A DNA stretch of 64,000 bases from Bradyrhizobium sp. AZCC 1610. GTDB lineage: Bacteria > Pseudomonadota > Alphaproteobacteria > Rhizobiales > Xanthobacteraceae. Made by a program: the position numbers and the translations under genes. Below, piece after piece: positions 218 through 64,000 of the stretch (position 1 is the first letter of the stretch; every line of letters starts with the position of its first letter). Where the stretch lies: the NCBI RefSeq assembly GCF_036924515.1, contig NZ_JAZHRR010000001.1:62001-126000 (forward strand), in the 5' to 3' direction. Below the pieces are notes generated by a model, which was given only the letters and a program-made list of their open reading frames with translations, was not told the origin of the DNA and did not search any database.

Positions 218-916
218 TCAGAGGCCGATCTGGCCATTGGGGTAAAATCCGGTGAGCCACGCCAAGATCAGCGTGTCGTACTGGAAGTAGGAGAGCAGCG
301 CGAAGGCGATCACGATGGCGCCGAACCCCTGCTGCATCCGCGGCGCGATCCGCGCGACGCTGCGGATTCGAGTGGTGACGGCCTGGCCGCCATAGGCGAT
401 GGCGAGCATCGGCAGCGCCGCGCCGACGGCATAGACAATCAGCAGCAGGCTCGCCCAGGCGGTATCCTGCGAGGTCGCGATGACGGTCAGGATCGAGCCC
501 AGCACGGGCCCGGCACAGGGTGTCCAGACCAGGCCGAGCGTCGTGCCCAGAACGAAGCCACCGATCACGCCTTGACGGGAGGCGGCCGAATGGCCGGTGA
601 AGCCGCCGATCCGGATCGAGAGCCATTCGAAGGGCGTCGGCCAGATCATCAGCAATCCAAAGCCGATCAAAAGGATCGCCGCGGCGTTTCGCAGGTGATT
701 GGGATCGAAATCGAACACGCGCGTGATCGCACCCAGCAGCAATGCCACCATCGAGAATGACATCACAAAGCCGAGCGCGATCATCGCCGGCCGCATCTTG
801 CCGGTCTGGCCGACCGATGCCCCGAGGAGGATAGGCAGCATCGGCAGCGTGCAAGGGGCGGCCACGGTGACGACACCTGCGAGCAGCGCAAGAACAAGAT
901 TGAGCATCGAAGGCAT
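218..916 (-). CDS. CcdA-type cytochrome c biogenesis / thiol-disulfide transmembrane protein
   Basis: This is a 232-residue integral membrane protein with about six hydrophobic segments. It has the two conserved Cys-Pro type motifs of the CcdA/DsbD-transmembrane family: APCTLPMLPILLG near residue 20 and WTPCAGPVLGS near residue 130. Members carry reducing equivalents from cytoplasmic thioredoxin across the inner membrane. The start is ATG at 916; a second in-frame ATG lies 9 bp further in. The next gene on the same strand begins 16 bp after the stop and encodes a secreted redoxin, so the pair probably forms an operon in which that redoxin is the electron acceptor. The specific client (cytochrome c maturation or another periplasmic thiol protein) cannot be read from the sequence. 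Confidence 0.85.
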   Translation of the reverse strand: MPSMLNLVLALLAGVVTVAAPCTLPMLPILLGASVGQTGKMRPAMIALGFVMSFSMVALLLGAITRVFDFDPNHLRNAAAILLIGFGLLMIWPTPFEWLSIRIGGFTGHSAASRQGVIGGFVLGTTLGLVWTPCAGPVLGSILTVIATSQDTAWASLLLIVYAVGAALPMLAIAYGGQAVTTRIRSVARIAPRMQQGFGAIVIAFALLSYFQYDTLILAWLTGFYPNGQIGL

Positions 917-1070
917 CCATCACCGGTCCCCGGCGAGACCATTGCCGGGTGCCTGATGAACTTCGCGGTGATGGGGCAGGGCGTTACGCGCGCGACGGCG
1001 CGGGAGGCGTCACGTCTCTGTGAGACCCTTTTCGCGCTACGCACACGAAATCAGGCGCCAAACGCAGAGC

Positions 1071-1100
1071 GACCCGGCTGGGGGGCATCCCGGCCGGGTC
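1071..1100 (-). terminator. Inverted repeat, possible terminator
   Basis: GACCCGGC at 1071-1078 pairs perfectly with GCCGGGTC at 1093-1100 across a 14-nt loop. It lies just beyond the stop of the small secreted gene at 1146-1346. There is no T-run, so it may be only a stable stem. Confidence 0.35.
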
Positions 1101-1111
1101 GTTGGAGGTTA

Positions 1112-1143
1112 CTTGGGAGGTCTAGAGCTTGGGAGGTCTAGAA
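1112..1143. repeat. Two tandem copies of a 16-bp unit
   Basis: The unit CTTGGGAGGTCTAGAG at 1112-1127 is followed directly by a second copy at 1128-1143 that differs only in the last base. It ends a few bases before the stop codon of the 66-residue gene and looks like a local replication-slippage duplication. Confidence 0.85.
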
Positions 1144-1145
1144 AT

Positions 1146-1346
1146 TCAGCGGGGGGTCTCGCTGTCGTAGGAGATCACGCAGACCTCCTTGGGACTCTTG
1201 GTGCCGCAATCGACCACCTGTTCACGCACGAACGTCGAACCGGTGTCGCGCTGGGCGCGGGGCTGGACGTTCTGGGCTGACAGGGTGGCCAGGGTCGCGA
1301 CGGCGCCGAGCGGGACGATGAAAAGGCGGAAGGACGGCTTCAGCAT
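1146..1346 (-). CDS. Small secreted protein of unknown function
   Basis: This 66-residue protein starts at ATG 1346 with AGGAGA upstream. Residues 1-25 are a typical signal peptide (LKPSFRLFIVPLGAVATLATLSA). The mature part is about 40 residues, polar, with two cysteines (VVDCGTKSPKEVCVIS) that could form one disulfide. I do not recognise a family. The ribosome site and signal peptide make a real gene likely. It stands alone between the CcdA-like gene and the ECF sigma factor. Confidence 0.6.
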   Translation of the reverse strand: MLKPSFRLFIVPLGAVATLATLSAQNVQPRAQRDTGSTFVREQVVDCGTKSPKEVCVISYDSETPR

Positions 1347-1523
1347 GTTCGCTCTCCTGTTCGGCGTTGGCGTTCAAGTTGTTGACGAAAGGTATAGGGG
1401 CTGAGTTTTTCCGGGTGATGTCGCCGATTGTTTCATTTGCTTCGTCGGAGGTAATCTTTGTCCGTCGAAACCGACCCGCTTCTTGTCCCCAATACCATCT
1501 TAACCTGTTGAAGTAGCTGAAGT

Positions 1524-2135
1524 TTATGCGGCGAGGCTGTCCACGCCGGCGCCCTTAAGCAACTCGGCCAATTGTTTGCGGGCATAGAACATCCGGGTCT
1601 TCACCGTGCTCTGGGGAATACCGATGATCGCGCCGGCCTCTTCCACCGACTTCTCGTGGTAGTAGACCAGATTGATGATCTCGCGATGGGCCGGCGACAG
1701 CTTGGCGACGCAGGCGCGCAGGATGGCGCTGGTGTTGCTGCGGTCGAGTGAGGCTTCCGGCGTGTCGGCCTCATCGGCGATCTCCAGCACGTCTTCCTGC
1801 TCGATGTCCTCATGCTTGCGCTGACGCAGCGCGGTCAGCGCCTTGAAGCGGGCAATCGACAGCAGCCAGGTCGAAACCTGCGAGCGGCCCTCGAACTGGC
1901 TGGCGGTCCGCCACACGTCGAGGAAGACCTGGCTGACGAGGTCTTCCGCCATCGTGGTATCGCGCACCATGCGCAGCACGAAGCGGTAAACCCGGACGTT
2001 ATGGCGGGAATAAAGCACATGCATCGCCGTGCGGTCGCCCTTGGCAATACTCTGCAGCAGCATTTCGTCTGATGTCGCGCGGGCGGCGGCAATCGACTTC
2101 TTGGCTGCGGCGTTGATGGCGACGACGTTCGACAT
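1524..2135 (-). CDS. ECF-type RNA polymerase sigma factor
   Basis: The product is 203 residues, the usual ECF length. Region 2 includes VLYSRHNVRVYRFVLRMVRD and the AEDLVSQVFLDVWR helix; after a linker rich in Asp/Glu, region 4 holds the helix-turn-helix KSVEEAGAIIGIPQSTVKTRMFYARKQL. I chose ATG 2135 (MSNVVAINAAAKKS) because GGGGAG lies just upstream; the frame is open to 2306 but that extension has no family character. No anti-sigma gene is adjacent, so the controlling signal is not visible. The target promoters are unknown. Confidence 0.9.
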   Translation of the reverse strand: MSNVVAINAAAKKSIAAARATSDEMLLQSIAKGDRTAMHVLYSRHNVRVYRFVLRMVRDTTMAEDLVSQVFLDVWRTASQFEGRSQVSTWLLSIARFKALTALRQRKHEDIEQEDVLEIADEADTPEASLDRSNTSAILRACVAKLSPAHREIINLVYYHEKSVEEAGAIIGIPQSTVKTRMFYARKQLAELLKGAGVDSLAA

Positions 2136-2250
2136 GACAGGCTCCCCAATTCCGACGCCAACAGGCGTTTCGTTGGGAGGATTGTTAATCAGGCTCGGTT
2201 TCGGGACGTCTGCACCAAAGGGGGAAAATGGTTTCGTGCCCGAGAGAATT

Positions 2251-2277
2251 GTTTCGTCGCGGGGCCTGCGACGAAAC
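2251..2277. promoter_or_regulatory. Perfect 10-bp inverted repeat upstream of the sigma factor gene
   Basis: GTTTCGTCGC at 2251-2260 pairs perfectly with GCGACGAAAC at 2268-2277 across 7 nt. Two more GTTTCGT-like words lie at about 2169 and 2231. The site is 116 bp upstream of the sigma factor start. It could be an operator or a leader hairpin; no factor can be assigned. Confidence 0.45.
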
Positions 2278-2350
2278 ATTCGGGAGTAAAAGGCCAGTAA
2301 TTTCAATATGCGGAAAATTGGAAGATTTCGGGCATAGGCACAAGCCTATC

Positions 2351-2469
2351 GTCGTCCCTGCGAAAGCAGGGACCCATAACCACAGGGAGTTGTTGTTTGC
2401 CGAAGGCGTCGACCAACACGTCTTATCGGCAGATCACGCGGTATGGGTCCCTGCGTTCGCAGGGACGAC
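2351..2469. repeat. Intergenic palindromic repeat, family A
   Basis: The element begins GTCGTCCCTGCGAA and ends with the inverse, TTCGCAGGGACGAC, and contains inner arms around ACCCATAACC and TATGGGTCCC. Related copies lie at 33046-33167 and 47391-47550. It lies between the OmpR-type regulator and the sigma factor gene. Confidence 0.85.
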
Positions 2470-2478
2470 GAAGAAGGC

Positions 2479-3216
2479 CTAACCCTTCTCGCCGGTCGGC
2501 GAGAATAGATAACCGCCGCCTCTGATCGTGCGGATCACGGCGGGCTTGGTCGGGTCGATCTCGATCTTGCGCCGGATGCGCATGATCCTGAGATCGACGG
2601 CGCGGTCGAAGGCTTCGGCGTCGCGCGCATTGGCCAATTCCAACAGCCGCTCCCGCGACAACACCCGCTTCGGATTCGCTGCGAACACCTTCAACAGGCC
2701 GAACTCGGAGGCCGTCAGCGGATGCTCGTTGCCTTCGTCGTCGCGCAGCGCCTGGGCTTCGAGGTCGAGCCATTTGGTGCCGAACCGCACCAACTGCTCC
2801 TTCTCTGCCTTTGCCGGAGCAGCCTCGGGCGCGGCCGCTTTGGCCGGCGTGCTGCGACGAAGCACCGAGCGGATGCGCGCCATCAGCTCGCGCAGCTCGC
2901 AAGGCTTGGCGATATAGTCGTCGGCGCCGAGTTCGAGGCCGACGACGCGGTCGATCGGGCTCGCGGTCGCCGTCAGCATGATGACGGGGACGTTGATGCG
3001 GCTCTTCAGGTCGCGAATGATCGAAAGCCCGTCTTCCTCGGGCATGTTGAGGTCGAGCACGACGAGATCGGGCACGTTGGTCTCGATCTCGCGGCGCAGG
3101 CTTTTTCCGCCGTCGCACAGCGTGACGCTGAAACCGTGCATCTTGAGGTAATCACCGACCATCTCGCGGGCCGGTGGCTCGTCATCGACAATGAAGATGT
3201 GCGGGCTCTGGGTCAT
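2479..3216 (-). CDS. OmpR/PhoB-family response regulator
   Basis: This 245-residue protein has an N-terminal receiver domain (residues 5-120) with the acidic pair DD at 11-12, the phosphoacceptor Asp55 in VVLDLNMPE, and the Lys of AKPCELREL. A linker rich in Ala/Pro/Glu leads to a winged-helix DNA-binding domain (about 140-240) with LTASEFGLLKVFAANPKRVLSRERLLE and VIRTIRGGGYLFSP. Its ATG overlaps the TGA of the hybrid kinase by 4 bp, so the two are translationally coupled. It is the likely output of the three-gene signalling operon at 2479-7015. Confidence 0.93.
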   Translation of the reverse strand: MTQSPHIFIVDDEPPAREMVGDYLKMHGFSVTLCDGGKSLRREIETNVPDLVVLDLNMPEEDGLSIIRDLKSRINVPVIMLTATASPIDRVVGLELGADDYIAKPCELRELMARIRSVLRRSTPAKAAAPEAAPAKAEKEQLVRFGTKWLDLEAQALRDDEGNEHPLTASEFGLLKVFAANPKRVLSRERLLELANARDAEAFDRAVDLRIMRIRRKIEIDPTKPAVIRTIRGGGYLFSPTGEKG

Positions 3217-4958
3217 GTCGTCTCTGTCGCGGGCAGTGTAACCGTAAACGTCGATCCCTGTCCGGGGCCGGCGCTTTCCGCAGTCACATGGCCGCCATGC
3301 ATGTCGATGATGCGTTTGACAATCGATAGGCCGAGGCCGGTCGAACTTTCCCCGGCCGTGGGCTTGGCCGAGAGCCGCTGGAACCGGCCGAACAGCCGGC
3401 CGAGATCCTCCGGCGAAAGGCCGGCGCCCTGGTCGGCGATGCGGATCACCGTGTCGCCGACCTCATGGGTGACGGCCACCGTGATCTTGCCGCCGATCGG
3501 CGAATATTTGATGGCGTTGCTGACGAGGTTGTCGATCGCCTCGCGGATCCGGTCGGCGTCGCACATGGTGACGAAATTCGGCGGCGCCGACACGGCGATG
3601 GACTGCTGCTTGTTGACCGCCGAAGGCAGGTTCGAATCGGTGACTTCGGCAACGAGGGCCGCGATATCGACCGGCTCGCGCCGGATCGTGATGTCGAAGG
3701 CGTCCGCCATCGCATCGGAAATCAGGTGATCAACCATCGAGGTCAGGCGCTTGGTGGCGTCGCGGATATGCTCGACCTGCGCGGTGACGTTCTCCTTGGG
3801 CGAGCCGGCGCCGATCAGCTCGGTCAGCATTTCGGTGCGGCCAAGGATCACGCCGAGCGGGTTTTTCAGATCGTGCGCGACGGTGCCGAGAATCTCGTTC
3901 TTGAAGCCGTTGGCGCGCTGCAGCCGCAGCCATTGCGCCGACAGCCGCCGGTTGGCCTGCATCAGCGCGCGGGTGCGCTGGGCGACGCGGTCCTCGAGCT
4001 GGGTGTTGGCCTCGTGCAGTTGCCGGTAGAGAATGACGTTGTCGAATGCGATCGACAGCCGGCTGGAGAAAATCTCGACCAGCGCGCGGTCGGTATCGGA
4101 GAGCTGGCGCTCGGCCTGCAACAGCACCACCACCTCGCGACCAGAGCCGGTGCGCAGGTAAAGCACGCTGCGGTGGTCGGCGAATTCGTTCTTGCGGCGC
4201 TGGAAGGCGGCTTCCACCATCTGCCGCAAATCCGGATCGAGCGCCTTGGAGCTTGTGGTGCCGATGAAGCGGCTGTAGCAGCCCGAACCCGCCAGCACCG
4301 AGAATTCGCTGCCAGGAGCGCCGTCGTCGCGCAACACCAGGATGCCGGCGCAGTCGACATTGAGCAGCGAAGCGAGCTGCGTCAGCACGCCTTCCGCAAG
4401 CCGCTGCATCGATTTGAAGTCGTAGAGCGTCGAGGCGGCGTCGATGATGATTTCAAGCCCGCGCCTGGTCTGCACCATGCGCTCGAGCTGCTGGTAGCTG
4501 CGCAGCGCAGCCGTGAGCGAGGTGAACAGCTTGTCGGCGGTGAGCTCCGTCTTGGCCTTGTAGTCGTTGATGTCGTACTGGACGATGACGCGGCGCTCGG
4601 GCGCTTGTCCCGGCTGGCCGGTGCGCAGGATGATGCGGACGGTTTCGTTCTTGAGCTCGTTGCGTATGTATTCGACGAGGTCCAGGCCCGCGACGTCGGT
4701 TTCCATGATGACGTCGAGCAGCACGGCCGCGACGTCGGGATTGTTGCGCATCAAGGTGCGGCCTTCGGCCGCGGAATAGGCCGACAGGATTTCGAGCGTC
4801 GCGCCGTGCAGATTGTAGTCGCTCAGCGCAAAGCGGGTGCCCTCGTGCACCGCGGCATCGTCGTCGATGACGGCGATCTTCCATTTGCGCGCGGACGAGT
4901 CCTCCGGAACGGTCCCGGTATCGTCGATCAGGTGGAGGACATCGTCCTGTTCGGCCAT
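3213..4958 (-). CDS. Hybrid signalling protein: receiver, DUF3369, histidine kinase
   Basis: The 581-residue soluble protein has the order receiver, GAF-like DUF3369 domain, coiled coil, HisKA, HATPase. The receiver (25-150) has DDD at 32-34 and phosphoacceptor Asp82 in LLDVIMET. DUF3369 covers about 155-310. The kinase His362 lies in TVAHDLKNPLG, followed by the N box DNLVSNAIKYS, IRIADQGAGLS and STGLGLSIVKRI. No membrane segment is present. The start overlaps the end of the HAMP sensor kinase by 31 bp and the stop overlaps the response regulator by 4 bp. A relay from the membrane kinase to this receiver and on to the OmpR-type regulator is a reasonable inference. Confidence 0.9.
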   Translation of the reverse strand: MAEQDDVLHLIDDTGTVPEDSSARKWKIAVIDDDAAVHEGTRFALSDYNLHGATLEILSAYSAAEGRTLMRNNPDVAAVLLDVIMETDVAGLDLVEYIRNELKNETVRIILRTGQPGQAPERRVIVQYDINDYKAKTELTADKLFTSLTAALRSYQQLERMVQTRRGLEIIIDAASTLYDFKSMQRLAEGVLTQLASLLNVDCAGILVLRDDGAPGSEFSVLAGSGCYSRFIGTTSSKALDPDLRQMVEAAFQRRKNEFADHRSVLYLRTGSGREVVVLLQAERQLSDTDRALVEIFSSRLSIAFDNVILYRQLHEANTQLEDRVAQRTRALMQANRRLSAQWLRLQRANGFKNEILGTVAHDLKNPLGVILGRTEMLTELIGAGSPKENVTAQVEHIRDATKRLTSMVDHLISDAMADAFDITIRREPVDIAALVAEVTDSNLPSAVNKQQSIAVSAPPNFVTMCDADRIREAIDNLVSNAIKYSPIGGKITVAVTHEVGDTVIRIADQGAGLSPEDLGRLFGRFQRLSAKPTAGESSTGLGLSIVKRIIDMHGGHVTAESAGPGQGSTFTVTLPATETT

Positions 4959-7015
4959 TGAGGAGTTCCGTCGGCTGCTGTCTGGTCTGTAATCGTGGGT
5001 TCGCCCCGGGCGACTTTAGGCATGATAATGCGGAAGGTGGTGCCTTGTCCCAGCCTTGACTCCAGCATCATCCGGCCGCCGAGCTGTTGAGTGACAAGAT
5101 TATAGACGATATGCAAGCCCAGCCCGGTACCGCCTTCGTTGCGGCGCGTCGTAAAGAAGGGGTCGAACGCCTGCCGCTGCACGTCCGGCGTCATTCCGGC
5201 CCCGTTGTCGGCAAAAATGATCTCGATATCGTCGCTGCCGCGGGCCCGCGCCGAGATCGTGATCGCCCCGGACCGGCCGTCGGCAAAGGCATGATTGGCG
5301 GCGTTGAGGAAAAGATTGGTTAAAATCTGGCCGTAGGAGCCGGGATAGCCGTCGATGAAAAGCCCTTCCGGCACGTCCACCGACAGCGTGATCGCCGCCT
5401 TCTTCAGCACCGGTTTCAGGCTCGCGACGATCTGGTCGGTGGCCTCGCTGAGGTTGAATTGCCGGCGCTCGGCGAGCGAGCGGTCCACCGCCACCTGCTT
5501 GAACGACTGGATCAGCTCGCCGGCGCGGTGCAGGTTCGCCACCAATTGCCCTGCTGCGTCGCGCGAGGTCCTGACGAAGTCGTCGAGCTTGGAGCGGCGT
5601 AATGGCTCCGTCCGCAGTTCCTGCTCGAACATATCGGCGCGGCGCGCAAAGCTCGACGCCACCGTCAGGCTGATGCCGATCGGGTTGTTCACCTCGTGGG
5701 CGACGCCGGCGACCAGCCCGCCGAGCGCCGCCAGCCGCTCGGCGTCGATCAGGTTCTGCTGCGCGGTATTGAGTTCAAGCAGCGCGCTTTCGGCCCTCTC
5801 CTTCGAGGCGCGCAGTTCGTCCTCGGTCTTGCGCTTGGCGATGGCGTTCTCGCGGAATACGTCTACCGCGCGCGCCATGGCGCCGACCTCGTCCCTGGCG
5901 GTGGTACCCTGCACGCGGCGATCGTAATTGCCCGAGGTGATCGCATGCATCGCCGCCAGGATCTGCTGCAGCGGCAGGCGGATCGAGAGCGCGATCAGGA
6001 CGCCGGCGGACAGGATAATGCCGAGGAACATCACGGCGATCGACAGCACGCGGCGCGAGATGGCCGATAGTGTCCTGTCGAACGTCTCCTGCGCCTTCTG
6101 CTCGCGCTGGCGCATCTTGACCGACAGCTCGTCGATGACGCCGATGGCCTCGGCCTGGCTGGCATCGATGGTATTGCGCAAGAGCTCGGTCCGGATCGTG
6201 AGCTGCTCGGTCAATTTGGCCATCCCTTCGCGCAGCGCCACGGTCCGCGCCTTCAGCCGCGTCAGCGCCATGCGCTGCAAATCATTGTCGGCGAGGTCGG
6301 CCATCGCGGGGATGGTGTTCTCGATCGTCTCGGTGTTCCTGCGGGCGTCCTCGGCGGAGGCCGAGGCGCGTGACAGATAATAGGCGTTGGTGGCGACCAG
6401 CATGGCCGTGAACGCCTCGCGTGATTTCCCGAGTGCCGGCCAGATCTGCGCATCGCGATGCCCGGTGGCGCCCTCGATGATCGAGTACAACCCGGCCATT
6501 TCCCGGGCCGGCCCCAGCACTTGCTGCTCATAGGTCTTGGTGATGGTGGCCTGCACGGCGCGCAATTCGCCGAAGCCGTTGAGGAAACGGTCGGTGACCT
6601 GTTCGAGCCGCTCGACCGATCCTGATAGCATGGGGTCGTTCGCGGCGCGCGTGGTGAGCGTGCCGAGAACCGCTTCCCGAAGCAGCAGGATCTCGGCGAA
6701 CAGGTCGGGGCTCGGCTGGTTGATGTAGCGATGGATCAGGTTCTGCAGCCGGCTGGTTTCGCTTTCCAGCAGTGCCAGGATCTTGTCGGACTCCCGCACC
6801 TGCCGGACGTCGTCCCAGGCCGAACCCAGCACCTTGGCACCGTTCCAGATCAAAATGGCGAGCACCACGACGACGGCGGAGTTCAATCCCGCGATCGACA
6901 GGATGCGCCAGCGGATCGGCACCGCGCGCAGCCACTGGACGACGCGAAAACGGCCCCGCGCGGCGAAGGTCGCCGGCCGTTCCGCTGCTCGGTGCTGTTG
7001 CGGTGCGCCGGTCAA
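4928..7015 (-). CDS. Membrane sensor histidine kinase with HAMP domain
   Basis: The 695-residue protein has TM1 at about 38-58 and TM2 at about 323-345, enclosing a roughly 260-residue helical periplasmic sensor. HAMP follows at 345-395, then a coiled coil, HisKA with His440 in GLVAGVAHEVNNPIG, and a HATPase domain with FADNGAGMTP and GGTGLGLHIVYNLV. The frame begins with TTG at 7015, whose TG is shared with the TGA of the upstream TRAP-receptor-like gene; an alternative GTG lies 31 codons in, just before TM1. The arrangement resembles kinases that sense through a partner binding protein, and the upstream gene looks like part of such a receptor. The ligand is unknown. Confidence 0.88.
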   Translation of the reverse strand: MTGAPQQHRAAERPATFAARGRFRVVQWLRAVPIRWRILSIAGLNSAVVVVLAILIWNGAKVLGSAWDDVRQVRESDKILALLESETSRLQNLIHRYINQPSPDLFAEILLLREAVLGTLTTRAANDPMLSGSVERLEQVTDRFLNGFGELRAVQATITKTYEQQVLGPAREMAGLYSIIEGATGHRDAQIWPALGKSREAFTAMLVATNAYYLSRASASAEDARRNTETIENTIPAMADLADNDLQRMALTRLKARTVALREGMAKLTEQLTIRTELLRNTIDASQAEAIGVIDELSVKMRQREQKAQETFDRTLSAISRRVLSIAVMFLGIILSAGVLIALSIRLPLQQILAAMHAITSGNYDRRVQGTTARDEVGAMARAVDVFRENAIAKRKTEDELRASKERAESALLELNTAQQNLIDAERLAALGGLVAGVAHEVNNPIGISLTVASSFARRADMFEQELRTEPLRRSKLDDFVRTSRDAAGQLVANLHRAGELIQSFKQVAVDRSLAERRQFNLSEATDQIVASLKPVLKKAAITLSVDVPEGLFIDGYPGSYGQILTNLFLNAANHAFADGRSGAITISARARGSDDIEIIFADNGAGMTPDVQRQAFDPFFTTRRNEGGTGLGLHIVYNLVTQQLGGRMMLESRLGQGTTFRIIMPKVARGEPTITDQTAADGTPQWPNRTMSST

Positions 7016-7347
7016 ATCCGCTCCACTCTACGAAGGCGCCCGATCAATACCGGCGTCATCGTCCCGATCAATGCAACGTTGGTACGGTTGAGATCGGCCG
7101 CGCCGGTCCTGATATGTTCGAGGGCTTCCTTTTCCGCGCCGAGTCGGCGGGGATGGACCATTTCGATCGGATGCCTCTCGTTTTGGGGATCGGGGATACG
7201 AAACTCGCGCGCAAAAGCGCCCGTTGAGACCGCCGTAAGCAACGGCGCAACAACAAGCACGATGATCCGCGAAAGGTCGGCGCGGCGATACACAGCGACA
7301 AATCCCCTTAGAGATGGAGTCTGCGGCGGGGAGAAAAGGTTCAACAT
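7012..7347 (-). CDS. Short TRAP-receptor (DctP)-like secreted protein, probably reduced or degenerate
   Basis: This 111-residue protein has a hydrophobic export segment (IIVLVVAPLLTAVSTGAFA) and then AREFRIPDPQNERHPIEM. That is followed by LGAEKEALEHIRTGAADLNRTNVA, which matches the stretch after the first beta-alpha unit of DctP-type receptors (LG-E-E-I--G--D-NR). Full DctP proteins are about 330 residues, so most of the fold is missing and a short internal piece is also absent. It overlaps the kinase start by 4 bp, so coupling has been kept. It could be a decayed gene that persists as a leader cistron, or a minimal sensor subunit. The DctP relation is an inference from motif resemblance. 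Confidence 0.55.
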   Translation of the reverse strand: MLNLFSPPQTPSLRGFVAVYRRADLSRIIVLVVAPLLTAVSTGAFAREFRIPDPQNERHPIEMVHPRRLGAEKEALEHIRTGAADLNRTNVALIGTMTPVLIGRLRRVERI

Positions 7348-10159: not shown

Positions 10160-11779
10160 ATGAAGCGTCGCGATTTCCTGAAATCCGTCACCGGAGTTGC
10201 CGCGGGCGCGATGGTGCCGGCGCCGGCGATCTGGTCCGCGGCCAAGGCTGATGCGCGGTCGGAGACGCTGCTGATCGTCTCGGAAAGCGGCCCCAACAAT
10301 CTCGACATTCACGGCGTCGGCACCAACGTGCCCGGCTACGAGGTGTCGTGGAATTGCTACGACCGCCTGATCAGCCACGAGATGAAGAGCGGTCCGGGCG
10401 GGGTGCCGTATTACGACCGCGACAAGTTCAAGCCTGAGCTCGCCGAGGACATGAAGGTCGGCGACATGTCGGTCACCTTCAAGCTGAAGAAGAACGCGAA
10501 ATTCCACGACGGCGCGCTGGTCACGGCCAAGGACGTCAAGTGGTCGCTCGATCGCGCGGTGAGCGTCGGCGGTTTTCCGACGTTCCAGATGGGCGCGGGC
10601 TCCCTGACCAAGACCGAGCAGTTCGTCGTTGTCGACGACAACACGGTGCGGGTCGATTTCGCCAAGAAAGATCGCCTGACTCTGCCCGATCTCGCGGTCA
10701 TCGTGCCGTGCATTGTCAATTCCGAACTGGTGAAGAAGAGCGCCACCGAGAAGGATCCGTGGGGTCTCGAATATACCAAGCAGCAGACCGCGGGCTCCGG
10801 CGCATACAAGGTGACGAAGTGGACCGCCGGCACTGAAGTCATCATGGAGCGCAACGACGCGTGGGTCGGCGGTCCCTTACCGAAGGTCAAGCGCGTGATC
10901 TGGCGCATGGTGCCGCAGGCCGGCAACCGCCGCGCACTGCTGGAACGCGGCGACGCCGATATCTCCTACGATCTGCCGAACAAGGATTTCGTCGAGCTGA
11001 AGGACAGCGGCAAGCTCAACATCGTCTCGGTGCCCTATTCCAACGGCGTCCAGTATATCGGCATGAACGTCAAGATACCGCCGTTCGACAACCCCAAGGT
11101 TCGCGAGGCGGTAGCCTGTGCGATCCCCTACCAGAAGATCATGGATGCGGTGCTGTTCGGCCTCGCAAAGCCGATGTTCGGCGCCGCTGCCAACAAGGCG
11201 ACCGAGGTGGCGTGGCCGCAGCCGACCAAATACGTCACCGATATCGCCAGGGCCAAGGCATTGCTGGCGGAGGCCGGCCATCCCAACGGTTTCGAGACCA
11301 CGCTGTCGTTCGACCTCGGCTTCGCCGGCGTCAACGAACCGCTCTGCGTGCTGGTGCAGGAGAGCCTTGCGCAAATCGGCATCAAGACCACCATCAACAA
11401 GATTCCCGGCGCCAACTGGCGCACCGAACTCAACAAGAAGGTGCTGCCGCTCTACACCAACGTGTTCTCCGGCTGGCTCGATTATCCCGAGTACTTCTTC
11501 ATCTGGTGTTACGACGGCAAGAATTCGATCTTCAACACCATGAGCTACCAGTCGAAGGCGATGGACGAATTCATCCACGGCGCCGTCGACGCGGCGGCGG
11601 TCGGCAACACCAGCAAATACGACACCGACGTAAAGGGCTTTGTCGATCTCGCCTTCAAGGACATCCCGCGCATTCCGCTGTATCAGCCCTACGTCAACGT
11701 CGCGATGCAGAAGAATGTCTCGGGCTATCAATACTGGTTCCACCGAAGGCTGGATTATCGTGCGCTCGTGAAGGCATAA
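10160..11779 (+). CDS. ABC transporter substrate-binding protein, family 5 (dipeptide/nickel type)
   Basis: The 539-residue protein has an N-terminal Tat-like signal (MKRRDFLKSVTGVAAGAM...) and the family-5 binding-protein fold, with LAEDMKVGDMSVTFKLKKNAKFHDG, ITAKDVKWSLDRAVS-type motif and IPLYQPYVNVAMQKNVSGY at the end. I chose ATG 10160 because the Tat motif starts there; the frame is open upstream to 10040. It is the first gene after the NtrC/sigma-54 control region and 12 bp before the permease. The genes downstream point to a urea-derived or carboxyl-urea nitrogen compound as ligand rather than a peptide; that is inferred from context only. Confidence 0.88.
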   Translation: MKRRDFLKSVTGVAAGAMVPAPAIWSAAKADARSETLLIVSESGPNNLDIHGVGTNVPGYEVSWNCYDRLISHEMKSGPGGVPYYDRDKFKPELAEDMKVGDMSVTFKLKKNAKFHDGALVTAKDVKWSLDRAVSVGGFPTFQMGAGSLTKTEQFVVVDDNTVRVDFAKKDRLTLPDLAVIVPCIVNSELVKKSATEKDPWGLEYTKQQTAGSGAYKVTKWTAGTEVIMERNDAWVGGPLPKVKRVIWRMVPQAGNRRALLERGDADISYDLPNKDFVELKDSGKLNIVSVPYSNGVQYIGMNVKIPPFDNPKVREAVACAIPYQKIMDAVLFGLAKPMFGAAANKATEVAWPQPTKYVTDIARAKALLAEAGHPNGFETTLSFDLGFAGVNEPLCVLVQESLAQIGIKTTINKIPGANWRTELNKKVLPLYTNVFSGWLDYPEYFFIWCYDGKNSIFNTMSYQSKAMDEFIHGAVDAAAVGNTSKYDTDVKGFVDLAFKDIPRIPLYQPYVNVAMQKNVSGYQYWFHRRLDYRALVKA

Positions 11780-50274: not shown

Positions 50275-51234
50275 TTAAGCTTGAACGTTTTTGCTGTTAG
50301 GCCGTCGATAGGTCAGGCGCTTGCCAGCGATGCCCTTAGCAAGCTCGTTAGCGCGCTCGCCATCGGTTACACCAAGCGCGGTGCGGTTGTTATGGCGGAA
50401 ATCAAACTCCGCCAGATAGCGATGCAAATGCTTCTCGGAGCAGTGCTGGTAGGTGCCGAGCATGCCGCGCTTGAATACGGCGAAATAGCTTTCGATGGTG
50501 TTGGTGGTGATCTTGATATCGCCATCGCGGCGAACGTATTCGTCCTCTTGGTGGTTGACCGTATCGTGACGCGAGAACTCAGCGCCGAGCTTCTGATAGA
50601 CCTTCGCTTGATCGGTCATCAGATGCGCCTCTTTTGAAATGTTGGCGCGGACGATCGGCGCAACCTCATTAACGGTCGCGTTCGCAACGTGGAAGCTGCG
50701 GACTTGGCCAGTGTCGCGATCGAGCAGCGAAAGAACGGTGTTCTTATGAGCCGCGCCAGCGCGGCCCTTCTTAACGCCTTTCAAACGGCCAATGTACGTT
50801 TCGTCAACTTCTACCGCGCCGCCTTCGCCGCCCATCTGCGGGACAAGCCCGCCAACGCGCATTGCTTCACGCAAGCGGTGCATAAGAAACCAAGTCGATT
50901 TGTAGCTGATGCCCAGCATGCGATGGACCTGATGCGCGCTAATGCCCTTCTTGGAAGCGGTCATGAGGAACAGCGCCGCAAGCCACTTGGTCAGCGGGAT
51001 TTTGGAGCGCTCGAACACGGTGTTGACGGTCACGGTGAACTGTTGGCGGCACGCTGGTTCATTGCACTGGTACACGCCGGGACGGTGCGCCTTGCCTTCA
51101 AGCTTGGTGAGCTTCTCCTGATCTGCGTTGCCGCAATGCGGGCAAACCCGACCGTTCGCCCAAACGCGGGCTTCAAGCCATTCGCGGGCTGCGGTTTCGT
51201 CGTGGAAGATGGGGTTTTTGAGTAAATCGGTCAT
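50275..51234 (-). CDS. IS1595-family transposase
   Basis: The 319-residue transposase has an N-terminal zinc ribbon (CPHCGNADQ...YQCNEPACRQQFTVTVNTVFERSKIPLTKWLAALFLM) and the DDE-type core with GAVEVDETYIGRLKG, LMTDQAKVYQKLG and TNTIESYFAVFKRGMLGTYQHCSEKHLHRYLAEFDFRHN, where the IS1595 group typically uses DDN/ES residues. It is intact and starts 38 bp inside the right inverted repeat. Confidence 0.95.
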   Translation of the reverse strand: MTDLLKNPIFHDETAAREWLEARVWANGRVCPHCGNADQEKLTKLEGKAHRPGVYQCNEPACRQQFTVTVNTVFERSKIPLTKWLAALFLMTASKKGISAHQVHRMLGISYKSTWFLMHRLREAMRVGGLVPQMGGEGGAVEVDETYIGRLKGVKKGRAGAAHKNTVLSLLDRDTGQVRSFHVANATVNEVAPIVRANISKEAHLMTDQAKVYQKLGAEFSRHDTVNHQEDEYVRRDGDIKITTNTIESYFAVFKRGMLGTYQHCSEKHLHRYLAEFDFRHNNRTALGVTDGERANELAKGIAGKRLTYRRPNSKNVQA

Positions 51235-59332: not shown

Positions 59333-60385
59333 ATGCTGGAAGCAATACGCAGGGCGATCTCGTTTCTGCGCCAGAAGCAGGTCCTGCACAAGCTCGGGGT
59401 CTTGATCAGCATCACGGTCATTGCCGTTGCGTGCTACGTACTCTATCACATGCTCCGCGGCATCGACACCCATGAGGTGATCGACGCCATCAAGGGAACC
59501 GCGCCGCGCCAGATCGCGCTGGCGGCCCTGTTCGTGGCGGCGGGCTATTTCACGCTGACCTTCTATGACTGGTTCGCGGTCCGCGCGATCGGTCAGGGCC
59601 ACATTCCCTACCGCGTCAACGCGCTGGCCGCCTTTACCTCCTATTCGATCGGACACAATGTCGGCGCCAGCGTCTTCACCGGCGGCGCGGTGCGCTACCG
59701 GATCTATTCGGCCTGGGGGCTGAACGCGATCGATGTCGCCAAGATCTGTTTCCTCGCCGGGCTGACCTTCTGGCTCGGCAATGCCGCCGTGCTGGGGCTG
59801 GGCATCGCCTATCACCCGGAAGCCGCCGCCTCGATCGATCAGCTCCCGGTCTGGCTCAACCGCGTCGCGGCGTTCGGCATCATCATTGCGCTGATCGGCT
59901 ATGTGGCCTGGGTCTGGGTTCAGCCGCGCGGCGTCGGCCGCGGGCCGTGGACGGTCACGCTGCCAGGCGGGCCGCTGACGCTGCTGCAGATCGCCATCGG
60001 CATCGTCGATCTCGGCTTCTGTGCGCTGGCGATGTATGTGCTGGTGCCGGACGAGCCCAATGTGGGCTTTATCGTCGTGGCGGTGATCTTCGTCTCGGCC
60101 ACGCTGCTGGGGTTCGCCAGCCATTCGCCGGGCGGGCTCGGCGTGTTCGATGCCGCCATGCTGGTCGGCCTCTGGCAGATGGATCGGGAGGAACTGCTCG
60201 CCGGCATGCTGCTGTTCCGCCTCCTCTATTATATTGGTCCTTTTGTCATATCTGTAATCTTGCTGACGCTTCGGGAGATTATCCTCGGCGCGCGATCGAA
60301 GCGCCTGCGCCAGTTGGCGGCCGGCGCCGAGCCGAGGCATGAGGCCGCTGTCTATGTGCGCGAGCGTGGAGACACGGGCGCCTGA
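59333..60385 (+). CDS. UPF0104 / lysylphosphatidylglycerol-synthetase-like membrane protein
   Basis: The 350-residue protein has about eight hydrophobic helices and motifs of the MprF-membrane/UPF0104 family: AFTSYSIGHNVGASVFTGGAVRYRIYSAWGL and LLGFASHSPGGLGVFDAAMLVGL. It lacks the C-terminal synthetase domain of MprF, so it is probably a lipid flippase-like or regulatory membrane protein. ATG 59333 has GAGGTG upstream. It ends 37 bp before the chosen phoR start, and the phoR frame overlaps its end. Confidence 0.82.
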   Translation: MLEAIRRAISFLRQKQVLHKLGVLISITVIAVACYVLYHMLRGIDTHEVIDAIKGTAPRQIALAALFVAAGYFTLTFYDWFAVRAIGQGHIPYRVNALAAFTSYSIGHNVGASVFTGGAVRYRIYSAWGLNAIDVAKICFLAGLTFWLGNAAVLGLGIAYHPEAAASIDQLPVWLNRVAAFGIIIALIGYVAWVWVQPRGVGRGPWTVTLPGGPLTLLQIAIGIVDLGFCALAMYVLVPDEPNVGFIVVAVIFVSATLLGFASHSPGGLGVFDAAMLVGLWQMDREELLAGMLLFRLLYYIGPFVISVILLTLREIILGARSKRLRQLAAGAEPRHEAAVYVRERGDTGA

Positions 60386-60422
60386 CGAAGCGGCTTCGCG
60401 AATAGAGGAAACAGCCTGCGCC

Positions 60423-61724
60423 ATGGCGATCGACGATTCCAGCTCTTCCTCCTTCTTTGCACCGTGGCCGGACCGGTTGCGGCATTCGGCCATTATCCTG
60501 CTCGCCGCCGGCCTCGCGCTTTGCGCGCTCGTGCTGTTGGCCGATCTCTCGCCGGCGCGCGCCGTGGCCGTTTTCATCTGTATCGCCGCCGCAGCGCTGG
60601 TGCCGTGGCGGCTGCATCATGCGGCGGCCTCCCGTGACGACGTCCGCGCCGTCAGTCCGGTCGAGTCTGCAGCCGTCAGCGCCGTCGTTGCCGGCATGCC
60701 GGATCCGGCCGTGCTGCTCGACCGCGCCGGGCGCGTCCTCCATCTCAATGCGGCGGCTGCCCAACTCGCGCCCGCGCTGCGCAAGAACGAACTCGCGCAG
60801 TTCGCGCTACGCTCGCCGGAGATCATCACCGCGTTGCGCGAGGCGATCGCAACCACCGAACCGCGTCGGACGACCTATCTCGACCAGGTGCCGGTCGACC
60901 GCTGGATGGAATTGATCATCACGCCGGTGCCGGTGCCGACGCTGTTCGGCGGCACCGAGAAATGCATGCTGATGACCTTCCACGACCAGACGCCGCTGCG
61001 GCGGGTCGAGGAAATGCGCGCCGATTTCGTCGCCAATGCCAGCCACGAACTGCGGACGCCGCTCGCGGCGTTGTCCGGCTTCATCGATACGCTGCAGGGG
61101 CCGGCCAAGGACGACACCAAGGCACGCGAACGCTTCCTCGGCATCATGCATACGCAGGCGACGCGGATGGCGCGGCTGATCGACGATCTGCTGTCGCTGT
61201 CGCGGGTCGAATTATCGGCCCATGTCCGGCCCGACGCTTGCGTCGATATCGTGCCGATCATTCGCCAGGTCGCCGACGGGCTGGAGCCGCTCGCCCGGGA
61301 ACGCCAGGTCGAAATCGAGATCGACCTGCCGACCGCACAGGTCGCGATCGCGGGCGATCGCGAGGAACTGCTGCGGCTGTTCGAGAACCTGATCGAGAAC
61401 GCGCTCAAATACGGCGCGTCCGGCGGACGGGTGATCGTCTCCCTGATCCAGGCGACCTCGGGCGAGGGCGCGCCGGAAATCCGCATCATGGTCCGGGATT
61501 TCGGCCCCGGCATTGCTCCGGAACACCTGCCGCGGCTGACCGAGCGCTTCTACCGGGTCGATGTCGGCGATAGCCGCGCGCAGGGTGGAACCGGGCTCGG
61601 TTTATCCTTGGTGAAACATATTCTTAACCGCCATCGCGGCCGGCTCTTGATCGAAAGCGTGCCCAAAAACGGCGCCGTCTTTACTGCCTGTTTTCCCCAG
61701 GCCAAGCCGCCTTCAGTGCACTAG
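60423..61724 (+). CDS. phoR: Phosphate-regulon sensor histidine kinase PhoR
   Basis: The 433-residue protein has two adjacent membrane helices (IILLAAGLALCALVLLADL, AVAVFICIAAAALVPWRL), a PAS-like domain (VAGMPDPAVLLDRAGRVLHLNAAAAQLAP), HisKA with the H-box FVANASHELRTPLAALSGF and HATPase with NLIENALKYGASGG, VRDFGPGIAPEHLPRL and GGTGLGLSLVKHIL. The short periplasmic loop is typical of PhoR. A Pho box beyond the cassette at 63961 supports the call. ATG 60423 has GAGGAAA upstream; ATGs at 60354 and 60339 are alternatives. Its last 161 bp are repeated at 63773-63933; the C-terminal residues here are QAKPPSVH against QAKAPSTH in the repeat. Confidence 0.9.
   Translation: MAIDDSSSSSFFAPWPDRLRHSAIILLAAGLALCALVLLADLSPARAVAVFICIAAAALVPWRLHHAAASRDDVRAVSPVESAAVSAVVAGMPDPAVLLDRAGRVLHLNAAAAQLAPALRKNELAQFALRSPEIITALREAIATTEPRRTTYLDQVPVDRWMELIITPVPVPTLFGGTEKCMLMTFHDQTPLRRVEEMRADFVANASHELRTPLAALSGFIDTLQGPAKDDTKARERFLGIMHTQATRMARLIDDLLSLSRVELSAHVRPDACVDIVPIIRQVADGLEPLARERQVEIEIDLPTAQVAIAGDREELLRLFENLIENALKYGASGGRVIVSLIQATSGEGAPEIRIMVRDFGPGIAPEHLPRLTERFYRVDVGDSRAQGGTGLGLSLVKHILNRHRGRLLIESVPKNGAVFTACFPQAKPPSVH
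61564..61724 (+). repeat. Copy 1 of the duplicated phoR 3' end
   Basis: It aligns without gaps to 63773-63933. The first 82 bp (61564-61645) are identical; mismatches occur at 61646, 61676, 61679 and 61703 and become frequent in the last 20 bp, where the stop codons also differ (TAG against TGA). Confidence 0.94.
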
Positions 61725-61791
61725 GGGGCGTGCCTCGGTTTGAAATCTGCCCGGCGGAGGGGCGGTCGTCCAATCAGACGGAGGACACGCG

Positions 61792-62031
61792 ATGCAGCTT
61801 CAAGCAACTCTGACTTGCCCCGCCTGCGGACATCAGTCCACCGAGACCATGCCAACGAACGCCTGCCAGTTCTTCTACGACTGCAGCGGCTGCGGGGAGA
61901 GGCTTAAGCCGCTTCCCGGCGATTGCTGCGTCTTCTGCTCCTACGGGGCCGTGCCGTGCCCGCCGATCCAAGAGAACGGTAAGAGCGCTGCTGTAGCTGA
62001 GGCGACCAAAGTTCGCATGTCTTCCTGCTAA
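61792..62031 (+). CDS. GDCCVxC-domain protein
   Basis: The 79-residue protein has CPACGH, CSGCGERLKPLPGDCCVFCSYG and further cysteines, twelve or so in all, with the family-defining GDCCVFC motif. Such proteins are found in metal and mercury resistance gene groups and are thought to bind metal or donate thiols; activity is unproven. It is convergent with the MerR gene, 7 bp apart. A ribosome site GGAGG lies at about 61777. Confidence 0.85.
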   Translation: MQLQATLTCPACGHQSTETMPTNACQFFYDCSGCGERLKPLPGDCCVFCSYGAVPCPPIQENGKSAAVAEATKVRMSSC

Positions 62032-62038
62032 CAGTCCG

Positions 62039-62476
62039 CTACATGGTGGAGATCTGCGATTTGCAGGGGCCGCTTGCGAGGTCATCAAGGATCACGCAGT
62101 CGGGTCCTGGCCCGCCAGCGCAGGAAGAATTGCAGTTCACAACGAATGCAGCAATGCTGCGCTCAAGCGCCTTCAACTCAGCCAGCTTCGCGCGCACGGT
62201 CGCGAGATGCGCTTCCGCCATATTGCGCGCATGCATGCAAGAACTTTGCGGGTCCTGCACTAGCCCGACGAGCGAACGAACTTGTTCGATCGGGAACCCA
62301 AAATCTCGGCAGCGGCGAATGAATGTCAGCCGTTTCACGTCAGCATCGTCATATACGCGCTGACCGCCGGCCTGCCGGTCCGCTGGGCGAAGCAAGCCAA
62401 TCTCTTCGTAGTAACGAATAGTCGGCACGTTAGTCCCCGTCCGCTTTGCAAGGACTCCAATCTTCACTTTCGACAT
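62039..62476 (-). CDS. MerR-family metal-responsive regulator
   Basis: The 145-residue protein has the MerR winged helix (KIGVLAKRTGTNVPTIRYYEEIGLLRPADR...RVYDDADVKRLTFIRRCRDFGF) and a dimer helix. Cys80, Cys115, Cys119 and Cys127 lie close to the positions of Cys82, Cys117 and Cys126, which bind Hg(II) in MerR. The CNSSCAGGPGPDC loop differs from the SoxR cluster motif, so a thiophilic metal is more likely than redox sensing. It is divergent from the MerT-like gene, with a MerR-type promoter between them. ATG 62476 is chosen over ATG 62488. Confidence 0.88.
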   Translation of the reverse strand: MSKVKIGVLAKRTGTNVPTIRYYEEIGLLRPADRQAGGQRVYDDADVKRLTFIRRCRDFGFPIEQVRSLVGLVQDPQSSCMHARNMAEAHLATVRAKLAELKALERSIAAFVVNCNSSCAGGPGPDCVILDDLASGPCKSQISTM

Positions 62477-62502
62477 GCTTGGGCTCACAGCGATTTTTCC
62501 TC

Positions 62503-62533
62503 TTGAACCTCAAGTTACTTGAGGAAGTAACCT
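62503..62533 (+). promoter_or_regulatory. MerR-type promoter with 19-bp spacer
   Basis: TTGAAC (62503-62508) and TAACCT (62528-62533) are separated by 19 bp, the overlong spacer of MerR-regulated promoters. Within it CCTCAAGTTACTTGAGG (62508-62524) is a perfect dyad, one base shorter than the classical SoxR box. Confidence 0.82.
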
Positions 62534-62577
62534 ATGGGCAAGGACCTCGTCAGGGAACCGAGAGGAGACAGCAAGAA

Positions 62578-63297
62578 ATGACTTCAGTTGAAGACCCGCC
62601 GATCGCCTGCACCTTAACCGCTGGTGAATATAAGGATCGATTGGCATCGATCCGTGCCTTGACCTGTGATGCGCTGCGTCGCCACGAGCGCCGGGGCTTG
62701 GTTCTAGACCTTTACTACGCCCCGGAAGCCGCCGAGCGCGTCAGGGAGATGGTTCGCAAAGAGCAAGTGTGTTGCGCATTCCTAACCTTCGATGTCCGGC
62801 CAGCAGCGGAAGAAATCCGCCTTTCGATCACAGCGCCGGAATCGTCGCGCGAAGCTGCCGACACGCTGTTTGAGCAGTTCCTTACGGGAGCGCCAGCCCC
62901 GTCGGCACCCGGGTGCGCAGCACCATCGAATACGACGTCCCTAATTGCCGAGAAGCGGCCCGGCGAGAAAGTCGCCGGATTGGCCGCCGTCACCCTCGCG
63001 ATTGGAGCAGTGGCGTGCGGCGCGTGTTGCGTGCTCCCATTTGCCTTGCCTGCTGTGGCAGTCGCAGGAACAGGGAGCATACTCGCATTCGTGGCCAGCG
63101 CGCACGCTTGGGTGACGGGCTTGACGGTACTCGCTGTTGTCGGCGCGTGGAGTTGGATCGTTTGGCAGTCGGTGCGAACTCGATGCTTACCAGCCGTGTC
63201 GACTCTTTACATGATGGCCGTAGCGACTGTCTTGTTGAGTGTCGCGGTGCTCTGGCCACTTATCGAGCATCAACTTGCCCGCGCGCTGAGGGCATAA
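62578..63297 (+). CDS. MerT-like membrane protein with an extra N-terminal cysteine domain
   Basis: The 239-residue protein has a soluble N-terminal domain (residues 1-105, with CTLTAGEYKDRLASIRAL and the Cys pair 65-66 in KEQVCCAFLTFDV) followed by three or four membrane helices. The first helix includes ACGACCVLPFALPAVAVAGTGS with Cys150-Cys151, which resembles the metal-receiving Cys pair in helix 1 of MerT. A soluble cysteine domain plus a MerT-like channel in one chain suggests capture and import of a thiophilic metal. ATG 62578 follows GAGGAGACAG. It is driven by the MerR-type promoter. MerA is absent from the cassette. Confidence 0.72.
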   Translation: MTSVEDPPIACTLTAGEYKDRLASIRALTCDALRRHERRGLVLDLYYAPEAAERVREMVRKEQVCCAFLTFDVRPAAEEIRLSITAPESSREAADTLFEQFLTGAPAPSAPGCAAPSNTTSLIAEKRPGEKVAGLAAVTLAIGAVACGACCVLPFALPAVAVAGTGSILAFVASAHAWVTGLTVLAVVGAWSWIVWQSVRTRCLPAVSTLYMMAVATVLLSVAVLWPLIEHQLARALRA

Positions 63298-63354
63298 CGA
63301 AGGCTCGGTTCCGGAGCATTGAACTTGGCAGCGGAAGGTGTGAGGCGGTCAGGG

Positions 63355-63678
63355 ATGCAGACGACTGTTGCCTATATTGGGGCCGCCATTGCTGAAATCG
63401 CGGGTTGCTTTGCCTTTTGGGGCTGGTTGCGGCTCGGCAAGCCGGCTTGGTGGCTGATCCCAGGTGTGCTTTCCCTGATCGTGTTCGCGTACCTGCTGAC
63501 GCTGGTCGCAACAGAGGCCGCAGGCAGGGCGTACGCCGCGTATGGCGGCATTTACATCGTTTCATCGCTGCTTTGGCTGTGGAGCGTTGAGGGCGTCCGG
63601 CCGGATCGTTGGGATATGACGGGCGCTGCAATCTGTCTGTTTGGTGCGGCCATCATCTTGGGGGGACCGCGCGGTTGA
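63355..63678 (+). CDS. YnfA-family small membrane protein
   Basis: The 107-residue protein has four helices and the YnfA signature [28 protein letters not shown] ... [43 protein letters not shown]. YnfA is related to small multidrug-resistance transporters. ATG 63355 begins the conserved part; the frame is open back to 63319. It follows the MerT-like gene by 57 bp and probably shares its promoter. Confidence 0.88.
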
Positions 63679-63772
63679 AGAATGGAAGGGCCCGCACCGT
63701 GGCTCCTGGCAAAGCGCATGTCGCATCTGGCATTAACTGGGAACTTGGGCTCGCGCTCCCGCCAACGGTCCT

Positions 63773-63933
63773 TCGGCGATAGCCGCGCGCAGGGTGGAAC
63801 CGGGCTCGGTTTATCCTTGGTGAAACATATTCTTAACCGCCATCGCGGCCGGCTTTTGATCGAAAGCGTGCCCAAAAACGGCGCAGTGTTTACTGCCTGT
63901 TTTCCCCAGGCGAAGGCCCCGTCCACGCATTGA
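63773..63933 (+). pseudogene. Copy 2 of the phoR 3' end (fragment)
   Basis: It encodes the last 53 residues of a PhoR protein (GDSRAQGGTGLGLSLVKHIL ... QAKAPSTH) and its TGA but has no upstream kinase region. Most differences from copy 1 are silent, as between related strains. It is followed at once by phosphate-regulon control sequence, so it is probably the original end of this chromosome's phoR. Confidence 0.9.
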
Positions 63934-63960: not shown

Positions 63961-63977
63961 TGTCATCCAACTGTCAT
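63961..63977 (+). promoter_or_regulatory. Pho box
   Basis: TGTCAT-CCAA-CTGTCAT gives two CTGTCAT-type repeats at 11-bp spacing, the PhoB recognition pattern. It implies a PhoB-controlled gene, most likely pstS or another pst gene, just beyond the right edge. Confidence 0.8.
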
Positions 63978-64000
63978 CTAACCTTCGTAAAAGCTCTATC

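Follow-up and report, generated by a model that had tools for sequence, protein, structure and literature searches.

The site between the sensor kinase gene phoR and the phosphate (pst) genes is a recurrent insertion hotspot in Bradyrhizobium, and the cargo found there differs among strains. In Bradyrhizobium sp. AZCC 1610 the site holds a cassette of 2,048 bp, upstream of pstS, which lies between two copies of the end of phoR. The window, i.e., the whole stretch of 64,000 nucleotides analysed, covers positions 62,001-126,000 of this 7.75-Mb one-contig genome. The explanation that fits best, and that we consider probable, is recurrent insertion independent of a recombinase, in which one side of the incoming DNA is anchored by homology in phoR and the other is end-joined. 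The features that define the locus are given below by their positions in the window.

60339..61724, plus strand: intact phoR (461 residues), the anchor gene; best NCBIfam match TIGR02966 (PhoR; 301 bits, under the model cut-off of 334), with HisKA and HATPase_c domains
61564..61724, plus strand: first repeat copy, the final 161 bp of intact phoR (95% identity between copies over 151 bp; 13 mismatches in 161)
61792..62031, plus strand: GDCCVxC-domain protein of 79 residues (NF041374, 104 bits, cut-off 40)
62039..62488, minus strand: MerR-family regulator (PF13411, PF09278), start codon uncertain
62578..63297, plus strand: protein of 239 residues with no family match, labelled MerT-like in a preliminary description
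63355..63678, plus strand: YnfA-family small membrane protein (PF02694 and NF002586 on 63358-63678; ATG at 63355)
63733..63768, minus strand: 3' end of a truncated DUF2306 gene, last 11 codons and stop (PLAGARAQVPS*)
63769..63772: TCCT, the joint between the DUF2306 tail and the phoR remnant
63773..63933, plus strand: second repeat copy, a 5'-truncated phoR end from nucleotide (nt) 1226, frame undamaged to the stop

The reading of the cassette as an insertion is supported by comparison of sequences, because most of the relatives read have phoR directly before pstS. The DNA 3' of the window's remnant directly follows phoR in 23 of 29 relatives (L006-L034; L and G numbers are our handles for loci and genomes), and pstS lies a short way behind phoR in 59 of another 60 loci (L041-L100) and in all 13 of one more set (L138-L150). 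The same holds for 72 of 80 named loci, a set overlapping the other samples, the eight exceptions being six loci with a gap of more than 400 bp and two with no pstS downstream. It is likewise supported that the downstream copy of the phoR end is the one joined to the pst promoter region. The preliminary description, which was made from the letters of the window alone, had proposed such a comparison of phoR-pst regions, and the empty sites that were to be looked for do exist in the genus.

A second phoR end was searched for across 265 genomes of the genus, that of AZCC 1610 included, with a 425-bp query in one search and a 195-bp query in the others; with the latter, four of the 264 relatives (G035, G075, G090 and G165) gave no phoR-end match. 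Such an end lies near phoR in 11 of the 265, namely AZCC 1610, G023, G038, G057, G087, G120, G195, G206, G234, G259 and G260. In G023 two phoR remnants stand in series behind a single phoR, i.e., displaced 3' ends have been stacked. The gene phoR itself reads through to its stop in the window and in the oriented carriers G120, G087, G057, G038, G023, G206, G259 and G234. Two genomes were not counted as carriers: G033 (L039), where phoR is followed by other genes with no pstS within the fetched stretch, and G011, which has two phoR copies each with its own pstS. The copies of G011 (L090, L091) share a contig, on which 75 kb separates them and their orientations are opposed; this is either a larger duplication or a matter of assembly. 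Insertions that lack the repeat also occur. For example, G047 and G007 carry a GDCCVxC-DUF2306-MFS-ArsR-type unit right behind phoR, with no phoR remnant by blastn at an E value of 0.1, and G132 (L063) has, between phoR and a divergent pstS, an insertion at 780-7300 devoid of a phoR remnant; we take the open reading frames (ORFs) of this insertion to encode GGDEF/EAL-like and chemotaxis proteins.

The cargo of these islands is varied. Pfam scans took in part of the island proteins (6, 8, 7 and 8 entries, one of them twice), and the rest were read as ORF translations. The island of G120 encodes an ArsR-type regulator together with subunits of the Rieske and molybdopterin types, taken to be arsenite oxidase, and that of G087 shares 94.5% DNA identity with this arsenite-oxidase cargo. 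A copper-type cluster of SCO1/SenC, DUF411 and a multicopper oxidase is found in G057, and also in G038 and G206, between which it is about 93% identical. The set GDCCVxC-DUF2306-MFS-ArsR occurs, whole or in part, in G023, G195, G260, G047, G007 and G234 (the DUF2306 match being below the Pfam cut-off); G023 has in addition an ArsP permease, G195 a MerR regulator and a heavy-metal-associated domain, and G234 a cation efflux protein. The island of G259 encodes a chemotaxis protein. Taken together, the scanned cargo consists of metal, arsenic, redox, transport and chemotaxis proteins, some entries having no match, and no toxin-immunity cargo was found among them. The cargo presumably has a metal-related function. 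For the cassette of the window, the GDCCVxC, MerR and YnfA labels of the preliminary description agree with profile matches, but the MerT-like label does not, the 239-residue protein having no NCBIfam match at an E value of 0.001 and no Pfam match even at 0.1. Behind the arsenite-oxidase cargo of G087 (L036, 4380-6200) there is a short GCCTGTTTCCCCAGGC trace and a pstS, and further on another decayed phoR end and a pst-like system that is different and distant; it seems that shuffling at this site has affected the phosphate genes themselves.

At the right-hand joint of the cassette, the 36 bp before TCCT encode, on the minus strand, the tail of a DUF2306 protein, the counterpart of which in G023 reads PLARARTEVSS*. 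In G260 this gene is almost complete (207 of 207 residues align, with one stop four residues from the end), as it is in G195 (206 of 207). The joint is a cut DUF2306 gene fused non-homologously to nt 1226 of phoR, and at an E value of 1e-30 it is absent from the other 264 genomes of the genus. G260 carries the window's cassette at 91% identity, and the match, DUF2306 tail included, ends at 63768. Beyond the cassette G260 continues with DUF2306-MFS-ArsR and then a short, decayed phoR remnant (69% identity, from about nt 1271). As the remnant of the window is longer and undecayed, deletion alone in such an island does not yield it. By similarity, the segments around the cassette have different closest relatives. 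The gene upstream of phoR is closest to the carrier G195 (95.6%), as is the 161-bp phoR end (145 of 151 positions). The tail of the remnant with the intergenic DNA is closest to the empty-site strains G103 and G028 (199 and 194 of 211), and pstS to the empty-site strains G125 (L025) and G028.

These observations suggest the following course. DNA carrying a phoR end and cargo would pair by homology with phoR on one side, and illegitimate joining would attach its other, non-homologous end to a position within a phoR end. This could proceed by homology-facilitated illegitimate recombination of a linear fragment, or by end-to-end circularisation and one crossover, with an identical product. The outcome would be a whole phoR, the cargo behind it, and a 5'-truncated phoR end before pst; repeats of the event would stack cassettes. 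In the window, the DUF2306 3' tail of a G260/G195-like island would have been fused to a functional phoR end at nt 1226. Afterwards the two copies could exchange by gene conversion, and the direct repeats could recombine so as to remove the cargo cleanly. The homologous anchor of homology-facilitated illegitimate recombination is present as the phoR end, common to the copies and to other strains. Of the routes of entry named as open in the preliminary description, the best fit is homologous recombination on one side.

Several points weigh against this explanation. Microhomology at the joint amounts to CGG at best, with TCCT between the parts. The mosaic is not clean: the first 1,225 bp of phoR are closest to the empty-site strain G054, the 161-bp remnant taken alone is closest to G196, and the intact tail with the spacer scores highest with the empty-site strain G103, though identity to G195 is higher over a shorter stretch. 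Recombination after the insertion blurs such signals of ancestry. Lastly, the insertion event is known from its outcome in sequence alone, and the molecular route, the direction of transfer and clean excision are to be read as reconstructions.

Transfer into an empty site would be unnecessary if the window had been remodelled in place, i.e., if a G260-like island had already been present, had lost DUF2306-MFS-ArsR by deletion, and had its long remnant kept fresh by gene conversion. The cassette, the left spacer and the DUF2306 tail all match G260, and gene conversion between copies does occur in related islands, as the copper-type family demonstrates. In G206, G057 and G038 both joints are shared. 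The cargo of G206 has 93% identity to the cargo of G057 and G038, yet within any one of these genomes phoR matches its remnant at 97.3-97.9%. The sites that group by genome rather than by position number 23:0 for G206/G057, 16:1 for G206/G038 and 2:0 for G057/G038, the last being uninformative. The copies thus exchange by gene conversion in this family. However, the remnants in the GDCCVxC-DUF2306-MFS-ArsR islands are short and decayed (69-76% identity), and as they start near nt 1271-1302 they are devoid of nt 1226-1270; moreover, in its intergenic DNA and pstS the window groups with empty-site strains, and its two repeat copies have not been homogenised over their last 79 bp. We therefore regard remodelling in place as unlikely. 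The likeness of copies in the copper-type islands might also be taken as a sign that the insert came to be flanked by two copies of the host's phoR end through a break with long staggered ends or an event resembling transposition, both copies being host DNA at first. But the shared joints and 93% cargo identity make the insertion older than that likeness, the copies of the window differ at 13 of 161 positions, and no transposase was seen with them, so that this origin is very improbable. Since the copies of the copper-type islands homogenise, their likeness neither dates the insertion nor locates the crossover.

Recombination at a defined core inside the gene end, as the preliminary description proposed, is not supported. 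As a rival reading it would be a site-specific event in which an element brought its own phoR end by means of a recombinase acting in trans or since lost. The observation behind the proposal is confirmed, and its interpretation is supported in part. The two copies form a gapless direct repeat of 161 bp in the same orientation, with a likeness far beyond chance; the first 82 bp have no mismatch, and the 13 mismatches (positions 83, 113, 116, 140, 144, 146, 149, 152, 153, 154, 158, 160 and 161) become denser toward the stop, 8 of the 10 changed codons being silent, stop included. The copies do appear to differ as the versions of two strains would. A plain tandem duplication was considered and set aside, the repeat ending inside phoR with unrelated cargo between the copies. 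Yet the gradient of identity, real as it is, is not diagnostic and appears to be mostly ordinary constraint on phoR, because the same stretch is conserved in the intact phoR of other species. The first 78 bp of the repeat are 97-99% identical to intact phoR of 11 other species, and when the phoR copy is compared with 17 relatives, 75-81 of its first 82 positions match, the last 79 bp differing more.

The boundaries speak in the same direction. The remnants begin at nt 952 (copper), 1148 (arsenite oxidase), 1226 (window), 1229, about 1260-1283, 1302 and 1316 of the 1386-nt phoR, the start points of decayed remnants being approximate, and hence there is no common truncation point. The right end of the cassette falls in the middle of a gene that continues in relatives. 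The preliminary description had proposed to look for larger versions of the island with a recombinase. Islands with other cargo were found in relatives; no recombinase was seen among the island proteins scanned by Pfam or in the ORF lists (serine recombinases were not searched for). The genome of AZCC 1610 has 16 PF00589 (tyrosine recombinase) matches over the cut-off that could act in trans, the nearest gene being at 320 kb, 194 kb from the island. Together with these, the gene-end target, the restored intact gene, the direct repeats and the serial insertion in G023 leave site-specific integration a small probability, below that of remodelling in place. An att core as such was set aside in view of the variable boundaries, the recombinase search and the constraint on phoR.

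Islands integrated at gene 3' ends by tyrosine recombinases are a familiar class, and integrase-less islands can be mobilised in trans. The phoR islands resemble them in the duplicated gene end, the intact target and a cargo that lacks a recombinase. Unlike that class with its fixed core, they have a variable boundary, and their cargo stops within a gene.

Serial insertion of this sort, free of a recombinase and located behind a core regulator, would be a variant of an already known process. Homology-facilitated illegitimate recombination has one homologous and one non-homologous joint, and circularisation with a single crossover, which would yield the phoR structure, is also described (PMC3240628). 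The process described there is an experimental one, in E. coli conjugation and competent species (PMC3240628). It has likewise been proposed for the effector-immunity arrays of the Vibrio cholerae type VI secretion system and for orphan Rhs ends (PMC5361080). The arrays share with phoR the one-sided homology anchor, the old 3' ends shifted downstream and kept, and the serial growth; they differ in that the toxin gene is replaced and immunity genes accumulate, whereas at phoR a core sensor kinase stays intact and the cargo is unrelated metal or arsenic genes. Arsenite oxidase genes (aioBA) are known beside phosphate genes, with an extra pst1/pho1 set adjoining aio (PMC7533571). Similarly, G120 and G087 carry arsR-aioBA behind phoR; unlike that arrangement, it is within the phoR-pst locus that the cargo is found here, at a position also occupied by other cargo. 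In other species, short variable segments with repeats at their flanks are common (PMC2884548).

The hotspot implies that a core regulatory locus can repeatedly take up accessory metal and arsenic genes without a visible integrase. A repeat of a gene end can look att-like without being att, and island finders based on repeats could misread it. Repeats that are kept alike by gene conversion further predict clean loss of the cargo.

A further idea, which we hold tentatively and consider doubtful, is that the final phoR codons also serve the pst operon as a cis-element, TTTTCCCCAG, which precedes the CTTCGTAAAAGC block of its promoter region by about 83 bp. The candidate positions and the neighbouring promoter motif are as follows.

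61691..61700, plus strand: TTTTCCCCAG in the phoR coding end, candidate hidden element, function putative
63900..63909, plus strand: TTTTCCCCAG in the remnant adjoining pst, candidate hidden element, function putative
63961..63981, plus strand: Pho-box-like direct repeat TGTCATCCAACTGTCATCTAA upstream of pstS, read from the sequence

As TTTTCCCCAG lies inside phoR, an insertion between phoR and pst would persist only if the phoR end were duplicated. If true, a selective filter rather than a recombinase would account for the repeat, and metal and arsenic genes would have in phoR-pst a landing site that restores itself. In eight decayed remnants adjoining pst, which represent about five lineages (fresh remnants being left out of this test), no other 10-bp window of the tested part is kept as well as TTTTCCCCAG, with 90% against 36-70% in non-overlapping windows on either side; the distance from it to the CTTCGTAAAAGC block is 81-84 bp. 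Codons 422, 428, 429, 452 and 453 of phoR keep codons uncommon in phoR's own usage (90 loci). The conservation test was confined to those empty-site tails in which TTTTCCC stands at one offset (39 of 90 distinct tails), and the 99% conservation found there is conditioned on the motif; unconditioned, 82 of the 90 have it at one of three neighbouring offsets.

The remaining eight tails have no exact string, which argues against such an element, as do several other findings. Among the fresh remnants, G120 and G206 have altered motif ends and G057 has no exact string. Identity rises toward the promoter anyway, and the strongest block of kept rare codons is 417-430, the motif windows ranking 16th to 23rd of 261 (zero-based). 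The motif is also missing from G132, the PstS of which is only 70% identical. Within codons 417-430 the rare TTA, ATT and CTT are kept in more than 90% of the 90 loci in a GC-rich gene; this block is possibly another signal at the DNA or RNA level.

Beyond the genus, a family sample of 119 genomes (AZCC 1610 and four congeners included, 10 of them with no match at all) had a second phoR end near phoR in AZCC 1610 only, in a search that would miss short decayed remnants. No plasmid record covers 80% of the phoR repeat (six match, from Paracoccus and Methylobacterium, at 60-80% identity) or 80% of the whole 2,370 bp (332 records match), and no viral contig contains an exact 21-base piece of the repeat. 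Among the matches listed in open-licence literature, no title or abstract dealt with an insertion hotspot at phoR-pst. In Tardiphaga sp. P9-11 (L230) there is a possible short decayed phoR piece at 11465-11536, between phoR and pstS.

As regards the surroundings of the cassette, the ORFs 3' of 63933 presumably encode PstS, PstC, PstA, PstB, PhoU and PhoB. About 11 kb before the cassette, an ORF of 319 residues (50275-51234, minus strand) is presumably an ISXO2/IS1595-type transposase. Elsewhere in the genome of AZCC 1610 (L004, 4922-5100) there is a second GDCCVxC-like stretch, 79% identical to that of the cassette.

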